Source: Halanaerobiales bacterium (GTDB taxonomy: Bacteria > Bacillota > Halanaerobiia > Halanaerobiales > M55B127). Taken from it: DNA of 50,489 bases. Location: the NCBI GenBank assembly GCA_018334565.1, contig JAGXLU010000013.1:1-50489 (forward strand). Reading direction: 5' to 3'. The notes beneath the pieces were generated by a model. It was not told where the DNA came from, did no database searches, and was given only the letters and a program-made list of their open reading frames with translations. Below are positions 46,732 to 50,489 of the stretch, one piece after another (within the stretch, counting starts at the first letter, position 1; every line of letters begins with the position of its first letter). The position numbers were made by a program, and so were the translations under genes.

Positions 46732-49443
46732 TTAAAGCTTTCCTGTGTCTATCAAGTTAAACTTTCTTTCAAGGGGTAATATTTTGATTTCGAAGACTTT
46801 ATGTTGTCCAGGAGCGACATCAAATATATATTTTGTTTTCTTTAGAGTATGATTTTCAGGAATAGTTTCTCTATTTTTTATGATTAATTCCCATATACCC
46901 GGCCTTAGATTTTTAAAATGAAATTTTCCAAAAGTATCGGTATGTCTAATAATATATTTATCATTTTCTTTATTTTTCAAAATAATCTGCAGGTTTTTTA
47001 AAAAATGATCTGAATATAATTTTTTGCTTTTAATAATTTTAGAATAATTATAAACTACAGCTTGACCAGAAACTGAACATCCTTGTACAGTTTTCAAAAT
47101 AATTTTTTTATTTTCATTTGCTTTGATGGTAAATTTAATAGGAAGATTTTTTTTAAATATTTGATTTTGTTTCATACTACTTAAGTCTATATTTAAATAA
47201 TGAATTCCCGGTTTCAGTTGATTAAATATAAAATAACCATCTTCATTGGTAACAGCAGTATGTTCGGATATTTTTACAATTACGTCTTTGATACCACTCT
47301 GCTTTTCTTTATTGGAAGTATATATACGGCCCCTAATTTTGCCTGTTTGTTTTCTAATTGTAGGCAAAGCAAAAGAAAAATTTTGAATATATTCTACCTT
47401 AAAAATACATTCGCTATCCTCTTTTTGGGATTTAATATAAGTCCCCTTTAATTTGAATTGACTATTAAAATCTTTAAGCGAATTATGTAGTTCAAAAGAG
47501 ATAATATTTTTACTGTTTTGTTGATTTAATTTATTATCTACTTTGGACTTATAAGCATAATTTAAAATGATATTATTAGTTTTGTTAATAGCAAGATCAG
47601 CACTAACATTTAATAAAATATATCTATTTTTGTTTTCGAATTTGTTTTCATAATAAATACTATAAAATTGTTTGTCATATATTTCATAGGTTCCTTTTAG
47701 GCTAATTAAGCTTTGTGAAATTATTTTTTTAATAAGATGGTTATTAGTTTTAGTATTTGAATATACTACTTTAAGTTCACCATTATCAAAATGATGTTTA
47801 TATTTTATTTTCCAATTTGTTCTTTGCTCAAAAAAGTCTGGATTAAATCTAAGATCTTTAGTCCATAGGTTATTATAAATTAAATCCAGATTTGAATTTT
47901 TATCATGATATTGAGTAAAAATTTTAGTACCACTTTCTTTTTTTAATGGTTGGTTTAAATTTAAATTCAAATTATTATTAAACTTTTTAAATATGCCGTT
48001 TATAGATAAATTATTTAACGGAGAATAACTAAAATTAAATAGAAGGCGTTTACAGTCAGATATTCTACCAAGAAATTTAGGGTCAGAATAAAGATATTTT
48101 AACTGATAATTTAAATTACCATTATTTCCAGTAAGTTTTCCGTAGTAAGCATGATTTGTTCCATGTGTTAAATCTTTAGCATACTCTAATTCAAAAATAT
48201 TGTTGAGCATTTCAATTTTACTGTTCAAACTTAATATATTAATTTGCACATCATTTATTATTTTATGGAAAAAACTGCTTTTAAAATTAATATTATTCAG
48301 ATATTGGTAGTCACAGATAGCTGCCCAACTCATATCGTCATCATCTTTACTTTTTTGGTAATATGTTTTTAAAAAAATATTATTTTTTTCAATTTTTACT
48401 AAAAACCCCTTTCCTTTTTTTTGTTTTTCAGTTAAGTCAGTGGCTGTAAAATAGTTATTACCTATTTCTAAAGCCGTATTATTATTCCAGTATTTTAATT
48501 GGTAATTACCTTTGAAGTTAGAATACTTATTAGATTTTTTCAATAAATCTTCTGTTTTTAATTGCATAGATAGCCAATGTTTTTTGTCTACATCAATTGG
48601 ATTTAAAGTACTGAGATCAAAATTAATATCTAACTGTTTATCATAAGAAAAAATGACATCCAAATCAAATGGTAAATTTATATAAGCTTCATCTTTACCG
48701 GAAACACGGTTCAGGACTTTTACAGAAGTATGAATAGTTTTTGATATGACTTTTTTATTGTTATATGAACATTCAATGTTCAAATTTATTTTATGAGTTT
48801 TTGAAGTATTGATATGGGGATTCGTTTTTACTTTAACATTAAAAAAACTTATCTCATTAGGAGACAATTCAATATATTTTTGACTGAGTTTATTTATATA
48901 AGAGGGTTGATCATGACATTTTATATTTATATTCAGAGCAGCATTACTTCTATTGTTGATTGAACAACCTATTATATAATTATCACCTGCTATAACTCGG
49001 TCTGGAGATTTAATAATAAAAGCTTCTAGATCAAAATTTAATTTGATTTTAAGCTGTAATTTTTTTTCTGCTATTATATTATTATCTTGATCTATCAAAA
49101 TATATTTGATAGTGTATGTTCCTTTTTTTATATTATGTGGTATATGTAGGTTTAATAGTTCAACCTTACTTTGTTTGGGTTCTAGATTGAAACTAGACTC
49201 AAATGTAAGAGTTTTAAATCCTGCTGGAAGAATAACTTTTGTTTCTAAATGTATAGCTTTTTTGTTTTGGTTATTGATTAAAAAACTTAGTGTCAAATTA
49301 TTTCCGGGTAATGTTTCCAGCAGATCTGGCTCAACAAGTTCAATTTTGACTTGATTATTATCGGCTTTTATGTAAAGAGAAAAAGCCAATAAAAATAGTG
49401 TTATTAAAATAACTGTTAAAAAGAGCAGATGATTTTTTTTCAT
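46732..49443 (-). CDS. large exported Ig/beta-barrel protein with two C-terminal carboxypeptidase-regulatory-like domains, outer-membrane candidate
   Basis: A 903-residue protein with a signal peptide (about residues 1-28, core LLFLTVILITLFLLAFSLY). Residues about 30-240 look like two NEW3-type Ig domains (GNNLTLSFLINNQNK, GDNYIIGCSINNRSN). Residues about 245-690 are rich in alternating polar/aromatic strands as in a beta-barrel, with GNNYFTATDLTE followed by KGKGF near residue 326, a motif I recall from usher-like outer-membrane proteins (unverified). Residues about 699-780 (TNEDGYFIFNQLKPGIHYL) and about 788-890 (TDTFGKFHFKNLRPGIWEL) are carboxypeptidase-regulatory-like beta-sandwiches. GGAATTTT precedes the ATG. 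Together with the gene upstream it may form a surface or export pair. No specific function is known. Confidence 0.72.
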   Translation of the reverse strand: MKKNHLLFLTVILITLFLLAFSLYIKADNNQVKIELVEPDLLETLPGNNLTLSFLINNQNKKAIHLETKVILPAGFKTLTFESSFNLEPKQSKVELLNLHIPHNIKKGTYTIKYILIDQDNNIIAEKKLQLKIKLNFDLEAFIIKSPDRVIAGDNYIIGCSINNRSNAALNINIKCHDQPSYINKLSQKYIELSPNEISFFNVKVKTNPHINTSKTHKINLNIECSYNNKKVISKTIHTSVKVLNRVSGKDEAYINLPFDLDVIFSYDKQLDINFDLSTLNPIDVDKKHWLSMQLKTEDLLKKSNKYSNFKGNYQLKYWNNNTALEIGNNYFTATDLTEKQKKGKGFLVKIEKNNIFLKTYYQKSKDDDDMSWAAICDYQYLNNINFKSSFFHKIINDVQINILSLNSKIEMLNNIFELEYAKDLTHGTNHAYYGKLTGNNGNLNYQLKYLYSDPKFLGRISDCKRLLFNFSYSPLNNLSINGIFKKFNNNLNLNLNQPLKKESGTKIFTQYHDKNSNLDLIYNNLWTKDLRFNPDFFEQRTNWKIKYKHHFDNGELKVVYSNTKTNNHLIKKIISQSLISLKGTYEIYDKQFYSIYYENKFENKNRYILLNVSADLAINKTNNIILNYAYKSKVDNKLNQQNSKNIISFELHNSLKDFNSQFKLKGTYIKSQKEDSECIFKVEYIQNFSFALPTIRKQTGKIRGRIYTSNKEKQSGIKDVIVKISEHTAVTNEDGYFIFNQLKPGIHYLNIDLSSMKQNQIFKKNLPIKFTIKANENKKIILKTVQGCSVSGQAVVYNYSKIIKSKKLYSDHFLKNLQIILKNKENDKYIIRHTDTFGKFHFKNLRPGIWELIIKNRETIPENHTLKKTKYIFDVAPGQHKVFEIKILPLERKFNLIDTGKL

Positions 49444-49591
49444 AAAAATTCCTTTCTTTACTACAAAGCATATTAATGAAACTTAGGTAAATTATTAAAC
49501 AAAATTAAAAAGTATAGATATAATTATTAATTATTTCTATATTTACCACTTTAAAATTATACTTATCAACTAATTCATTGATAGAGTCTAA

Positions 49592-49643
49592 AATAGCCAA
49601 TTCCACCCTACCCTTATTTAAGGGGAGGGTTTTCTTGGCTATT
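49592..49643 (-). terminator. compound hairpin terminator between the two exported-protein genes
   Basis: Outer stem AATAGCCAA (49592-49600) / TTGGCTATT (49635-49643) and inner stems ACCCT-CCCTT / AAGGG-AGGGT (49605-49630). Read on the minus strand the hairpin ends GGCTATTTTAG. It lies 24 bp after the stop of the upstream gene. Confidence 0.8.
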
Positions 49644-49667
49644 ATTTGATAAATGTAAAATATATTT

Positions 49668-50489
49668 TTAAAGTCTCATAGTATACTGGGCCCCCCATAG
49701 TTGATCACATCCTCCATCGAGTATAAGAAGACTCTGGTAAGTGCCCGATTGTATTTCTTTTAATGGTATTGTTATTTTGGATATTGTTCCGGGATAAAGA
49801 CCGCTTAAAGGACCTTTAAATACCGCACATCTACTACCACTATCATCAAATAGTTCTAGAGTAGATTTGAGTTTGATCCAAAGATTGCCGGTGTTTTTGA
49901 GATGAACTTCAAGCATTTCCCCCTCGTCTTTTTTAATTAAACGACGTTTTATTATTTTGAGGCTTCTTTCCCCCGTGTTTTTAATATGTGTCCTAAATTG
50001 GACAGCGTAACGAATAATATGTTGTAGTCCAATGGCTATCTCATCTTCTTTCTCTCCCACAGATATTTTCTGCTTGGGGTGAAGTGGTTCAATCATCAGC
50101 AGGCTCCAGTATGTACCCTTTAGATAAGCATTAGGAACAGTAATGGTATATGAGATATTATATTCACTTTTCGCCGGTATGATTATATTATTGTCAGGAT
50201 TAAATTTTATCCAGGTAGAATTAGAACGTTCCAGATGGCCTGGATTCAAGTATTTTGCTCCATCAATAGTTGGATAATAATCATTTTGATAAATACGGAC
50301 TTGAGCTGGTTGTTCACCTTTGTTTTTAAGGACAATTGTACCTTCTATTAATCCCCCCCTATTTACTATATATTCTCTGGTTAACGAACCTTTTAAAGTT
50401 ACCCCTGCAGCAAACAGGTTTACTGAATAAAGAACACTAATTATTATAACAAAATAAAGTAATCTAGAAATTTTTAAATTATTAAAACA
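49668..50489 (-). CDS. exported Ig-like surface protein, 5' end beyond the window
   Basis: The frame is open from the right edge to the stop at 49668, at least 273 residues. Near the edge it reads a signal peptide (core LLYFVIIISVLYSVNLF, cleavage about FAA), then GVTLKGSLTREYIVNRGG. Two beta-sandwich domains follow, the first with WIKFNPDNNIIIPAKSEY and VPNAYLKGTYWSLLMIEP (the W..P..I.PxxS..VP..Y.KGTY pattern of DUF916/chaperone-like Ig domains), the second with EVHLKNTGNLWIKLKSTLEL. The start codon is just outside the window; an internal TTG at 50249 would remove the signal and is not the start. It may bind or escort partners of the 903-residue protein, which is encoded 225 bp downstream. 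Confidence 0.75.
   Translation of the reverse strand, partial: CFNNLKISRLLYFVIIISVLYSVNLFAAGVTLKGSLTREYIVNRGGLIEGTIVLKNKGEQPAQVRIYQNDYYPTIDGAKYLNPGHLERSNSTWIKFNPDNNIIIPAKSEYNISYTITVPNAYLKGTYWSLLMIEPLHPKQKISVGEKEDEIAIGLQHIIRYAVQFRTHIKNTGERSLKIIKRRLIKKDEGEMLEVHLKNTGNLWIKLKSTLELFDDSGSRCAVFKGPLSGLYPGTISKITIPLKEIQSGTYQSLLILDGGCDQLWGAQYTMRL

Follow-up and report, generated by a model that had tools for sequence, protein, structure and literature searches.

A candidate chaperone-usher-like module of two-membrane bacteria with a WxLIP-like chaperone fold

Results

A chaperone-like gene and a barrel gene at the end of a Halanaerobiales contig

We describe a gene module that probably encodes a chaperone-usher-like system assembling surface fibres on two-membrane bacteria, a reading to which we assign a probability of roughly 0.68. 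On the best reading, the module is distinct from the known chaperone-usher clades and shares a fold with WxLIP. It was recognised in the window (the whole stretch of DNA analysed, 50,489 bp, which is an entire contig from a genome of 2.16 Mb), where a chaperone-like gene lies upstream of a barrel gene on the same strand at the right end and the remainder consists of ordinary metabolic and transport genes. The features are:

46732..49443, minus strand: usher-like outer-membrane protein, 903 aa, complete (ORF, Pfam, AlphaFold2, Foldseek)
46771..47343, minus strand: two C-terminal transthyretin/carboxypeptidase-regulatory-like domains, residues about 701-891 (Pfam, AlphaFold2)
47353..48708, minus strand: predicted barrel region, residues 246-697 (AlphaFold2; 26 predicted strands, no plug)
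49444..49667, minus strand: intergenic gap of 224 bp between the chaperone-like and barrel genes
49668..50489, minus strand: chaperone-like protein, 273 aa seen, start codon past the contig end (ORF, AlphaFold2, Foldseek)

The 273-aa ORF is open at its 5' end because the contig stops at 50,489. Both proteins start with a signal-peptide-like helix in their AlphaFold2 models, and an earlier reading of the DNA from its letters alone (the sequence-only reading), which had called them two adjacent exported proteins, holds both for these same-strand ORFs and for homologous loci, where the two genes are neighbours in 76 of 78 cases. The gap at 49444-49667 exceeds that of most homologous loci, occurs as a single copy in the window's genome and contains a C-rich/G-rich inverted repeat.

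The 903-aa protein is predicted to form an usher-like barrel

The order of parts in the 903-aa protein is a signal peptide, two Ig/NEW3-like domains, a barrel and two transthyretin-like domains. Pfam finds two CarboxypepD_reg/SpaA-type domains at the C terminus and weak Ig-type matches at the N terminus, and an AlphaFold2 model built on an alignment of 47 homologues (mean pLDDT 88.7, pTM 0.61) places the Ig domains at about residues 32-133 and 139-244, an all-beta middle of ~26 strands at residues 257-691 (strand pLDDT mostly >90) and two closing beta domains at residues 701-800 and 809-890, so that the domain reading proposed from the sequence (Ig 32-244, all-beta 257-691, CarboxypepD_reg/SpaA-type 701-890) stands. 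Most barrel strands alternate in hydrophobicity, as in membrane barrels, and the middle part (residues 245-690), which had been called usher-like, is predicted with high confidence to be a transmembrane barrel. The plug that had been expected inside it did not materialise: the longest inter-strand loop measures only 16 residues, and the barrel therefore has no plug domain, which leaves pore gating without an explanation and weighs against the chaperone-usher-like reading.

A Foldseek comparison of the model with 350,542 PDB chains returned FimD/PapC ushers as its eight top matches (E 7e-15 to 1e-11); the best-placed outer-membrane barrel of another kind is a Vibrio porin (E 8e-7), with LptD at 1.4e-6. 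TM-scores against ushers are low to modest (0.27-0.31 by query length; 0.46 by target for the FimD barrel), and the match is accordingly a resemblance of fold and no proof of common descent. A direct search of the PDB with the 903-aa sequence gave no match, a PDB profile search gave generic Ig/NOMO and weak porin matches only, and porin-type Pfam models match the barrel of some homologues.

Among the Pfam matches listed, at least six of the 47 homologues carry a SPOR domain and one carries LysM, in those checked at the extreme C terminus; from these fusions we take the C terminus of the barrel protein to be periplasmic, probably beside peptidoglycan. In one barrel homologue (L123:1080-4283) the C terminus is apparently a single membrane helix, not SPOR/LysM. 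The family also has a hairpin motif in the barrel, GDxxYxLSPLTExxxYGRG, which is degenerate in the window protein; it had looked usher-like by eye, a regular-expression check against the E. coli K-12 ushers failed to support this, and the motif is therefore not counted as evidence.

The 273-aa protein combines a predicted two-Ig fold with features of pilus chaperones

The AlphaFold2 model of the 273-aa protein, for which 58 homologues served as input, has a pLDDT of 92.0 and a pTM of 0.82 and consists of two Ig domains, with a flexible stretch (residues 137-160) preceding the last strand of domain 1, which agrees with the chaperone-like partner suggested by the sequence-only reading. Column statistics for the family show conserved hydrophobic residues at positions 151, 153 and 155 of this stretch with polar residues between them, and beyond these R160 and Q164 are invariant. 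Pilus chaperones lend the subunit their G1 strand, which carries alternating hydrophobic donor residues (PMC4654587).

Foldseek placed the WxLIP of Enterococcus faecium, in one case bound to WxL, at ranks 1-3 (best E 1e-13, TM 0.52-0.57), followed by the pilus chaperones CfaA (ranks 4-6 and 8) and CsuC (rank 9) and then by YadV, FimC and Caf1M; TM-scores against the pilus chaperones are 0.35-0.50 by query and 0.48-0.64 by target. The DUF916 domain (WxLIP_PGBD) that had been proposed for this protein is marginal in the window copy itself (E=0.094); it gains support from matches in 16 of the 58 homologues (best 3e-7) and from the WxLIP fold match, and WxLIP_HBD is matched weakly in the homologues. 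In the AlphaFold2 model, the protein ends in a domain-2 strand and has no C-terminal helix or membrane anchor.

A conserved set of chaperone, barrel and subunit-like genes

Scanning genome contigs with the chaperone alignment gave 80 loci (128 confirmed) that span about 20 phyla, of which 17 named phyla are represented in the chaperone tree, so the module is not special to diderm Bacillota, the setting in which the sequence-only reading had placed it. A barrel homologue adjoins the chaperone gene in 76 of 78 testable loci, on its downstream side and often with a 4-bp overlap, a pairing beyond chance. Of 73 loci, 72 have an ORF for a small, secreted, subunit-like protein no more than 600 bp upstream, and genes resembling the anticipated upstream subunits are present in the homologous loci; subunit profile searches of the window's own genome assembly found none. 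Several phyla form single groups in the chaperone tree and others are scattered, a mixture in which vertical descent and transfer are inseparable. The three-gene set is also present on plasmid 2 of Deinococcus deserti (L178:5438-9286), where the name given to the chaperone in the annotation, 'FimB/Mfa2 family fimbrial subunit', is probably wrong.

The subunit-like ORFs number one to seven per locus and encode proteins of about 160-190 aa that fall into two types, whose profiles match each other. The subunit profile matches only three of 101 relatives, all three at module loci; these loci contributed members to the profile, and the informative part is the silence in the other relatives. None of 38 subunits matched a known pilin family in Pfam or NCBIfam, and hhalign comparison with the E. 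coli K-12 pilins aligned signal peptides only. The subunit-like proteins show no clear peak of hydrophobic alternation marking an N-terminal donor strand and no conserved disulfide.

The chaperone family tracks the outer membrane in Bacillota

We scored 299 Bacillota genomes for the chaperone family (E<=1e-6) and for Omp85 as an outer-membrane marker. The chaperone family occurs in 45 genomes, which stand for the family in a wide sense since this cut-off admits larger, weaker relatives, and Omp85 occurs in 76. Forty of the 45 chaperone-bearing genomes are Omp85-positive, compared to 36 of the 254 other Bacillota genomes (Fisher p 4e-23, an upper estimate of the strength of association since related genomes are not independent), as are all eight genomes with the strongest chaperone matches. 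Strong matches to a barrel-only profile in Bacillota were found only beside strong chaperone matches, adjacent on the same contigs.

Discussion

Relation to chaperone-usher pili

The module follows the same gene logic as the chaperone-usher pili (Fim, Pap; archaic Csu; alternate CFA/I, ECP), with which it has in common a secreted subunit, a two-Ig chaperone, a barrel whose N- and C-terminal domains lie in the periplasm, a distribution among outer-membrane bacteria, and ushers and chaperones among the best PDB fold matches. The predicted barrel of about 26 strands resembles that of ushers, which has about 24 and is flanked by periplasmic domains at both termini, and the 273-aa protein has the two Ig domains, flexible F1-G1 loop and alternating hydrophobics of PapD-like chaperones. 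The differences are that ushers have a plug inserted in the barrel whereas the window barrel has none, that two Ig/NEW3 domains occupy the position of the N-terminal domain in ushers, that some homologues of the barrel carry SPOR/LysM tails and that the subunit-like proteins lack a conserved disulfide.

By sequence, neither window protein is a member of the PapD or the usher family, in line with the earlier impression that no known fimbrial family is obvious: no usher, PapD or pilin model matched. PF00577 was absent from the best 25 of 32 families found in the 47 barrel homologues at E<=0.01 and from 101 relatives, while matching the E. coli control, and PapD_N/PapD_C (PF00345/PF02753) had no match in the 58 chaperone homologues at E<=0.1. 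The profile comparison with ushers that had been suggested was equivocal: PF00577 stayed unmatched, and hhalign of the barrel against the E. coli K-12 ushers scored 32-37, above the 11-19 obtained with shuffled columns, at a probability of about 9% that is far from significant. A 69% hhalign probability for the chaperone against the K-12 chaperones was dropped because the signal peptide drove the score; the mature parts gave 2%, likewise better than shuffled controls and well short of significance. Archaic chaperone-usher systems have been reported from Proteobacteria, Cyanobacteria and Deinococcus-Thermus (PMC4654587).

A model for the module and its rivals

In the model that we favour, small secreted beta-rich subunits would reach the periplasm via Sec, where the two-Ig protein would bind each of them and lend it a beta strand drawn from the loop and the last strand of domain 1. 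The barrel protein would take up the chaperone-subunit complexes with its periplasmic domains at the N and C termini, and the subunits, linked by donor-strand exchange, would pass through the ~26-strand pore to form a fibre at the surface.

The main rival is a diderm form of a WxL-like envelope complex, in which the two-Ig protein would be a WxLIP-type linker holding small surface proteins and the barrel with its SPOR/LysM tails an outer-membrane anchor, with neither polymerisation nor ordered secretion. The classical WxLIP carries a C-terminal membrane anchor, which the window chaperone lacks. This rival draws on the WxLIP of E. faecium, also in its WxL-bound form, as the top fold match and nearest solved fold, on WxLIP_PGBD in 16 of 58 homologues and on the peptidoglycan binding of SPOR/LysM tails in known proteins. 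The WxL system consists of WxLIP (DUF916 + DUF3324) with WxL proteins (PMC10599100). WxL proteins have a pair of WxL motifs, yet two such motifs occur in just three of 218 subunit-like ORFs and Pfam gave no PF13731 match among the subunits, for which we rejected WxL membership; moreover, a barrel gene adjoins the module chaperone in nearly all loci, the module hosts have an outer membrane, and it is ushers that the barrel matches best in fold. We therefore consider the WxL-like complex unlikely.

Still less probable, in our estimate, is that the barrel is a large outer-membrane porin or a tether between outer membrane and wall, with the small proteins structural and periplasmic: the porin-type Pfam matches of some members, the SPOR/LysM tails and the missing plug would fit, but this reading would account neither for the constant chaperone neighbour nor for the subunit-like ORFs, of which each locus has one to seven, and ushers outrank porins and LptD in Foldseek. 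Export of the small proteins as monomers through a secretion pore that is no fibre platform would draw on the gene set and fold matches that also speak for the fibre reading, and would suit subunits that show no clear sign of a conserved N-terminal donor strand; we nevertheless judge it very improbable, as ushers are dedicated fibre-assembly pores and several subunit paralogues per locus suit a fibre better.

On the chaperone-usher-like reading, the module gives about 20 diderm phyla, in which PF00577 almost never has a match (no usher in 30 of 31 module-bearing genomes), a concrete candidate for their surface fibres. The reading also casts a WxLIP-like fold as a pilus chaperone, so that a link between WxL and chaperone-usher systems becomes directly testable. 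More tentatively, and with the odds against it, the module could be a deep new chaperone-usher class over these phyla with a chaperone related by descent to WxLIP, the WxL system of monoderm Bacillota being a chaperone-usher relic left after loss of the outer membrane. Full-text searches of an open-access library, on usher-like systems of diderm Bacillota or other phyla and on WxL together with chaperone-usher systems, turned up no description of the module, and the gene set is apparently both widespread and undescribed.

Related arrangements

A second barrel family in Halanaerobiales relatives (about 1015-1062 aa; L015:7255-11138, L016:8221-11256, L019:7126-11008, L023:8517-12381, L063:514-4365 and L065:5700-9700) has a Cu_amine_oxidN1-like N-terminal domain, unlike the window barrel, to which it is homologous in the second half of the barrel and the C-terminal domains (hhalign probability 99.4, E 1e-21). 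It usually also has a two-domain chaperone-like gene and secreted proteins upstream, the subunit-like partners differing from those of the window-type module, and the homology points to a wider set of systems of this kind. In a third arrangement, a relative of the chaperone N-domain of ~240-560 aa occurs with small secreted proteins and a secretin-like gene ('ALNDLSIQTGVNI'), at L023:14614-18680, L059:8139-14418, L060:6738-10320, L064:6857-10592 and L066:8191-11078. Another Halanaerobiales locus, L019:1813-4975, holds genes that by eye look curli-like, with CsgA/B-like repeats and a CsgF-like protein.
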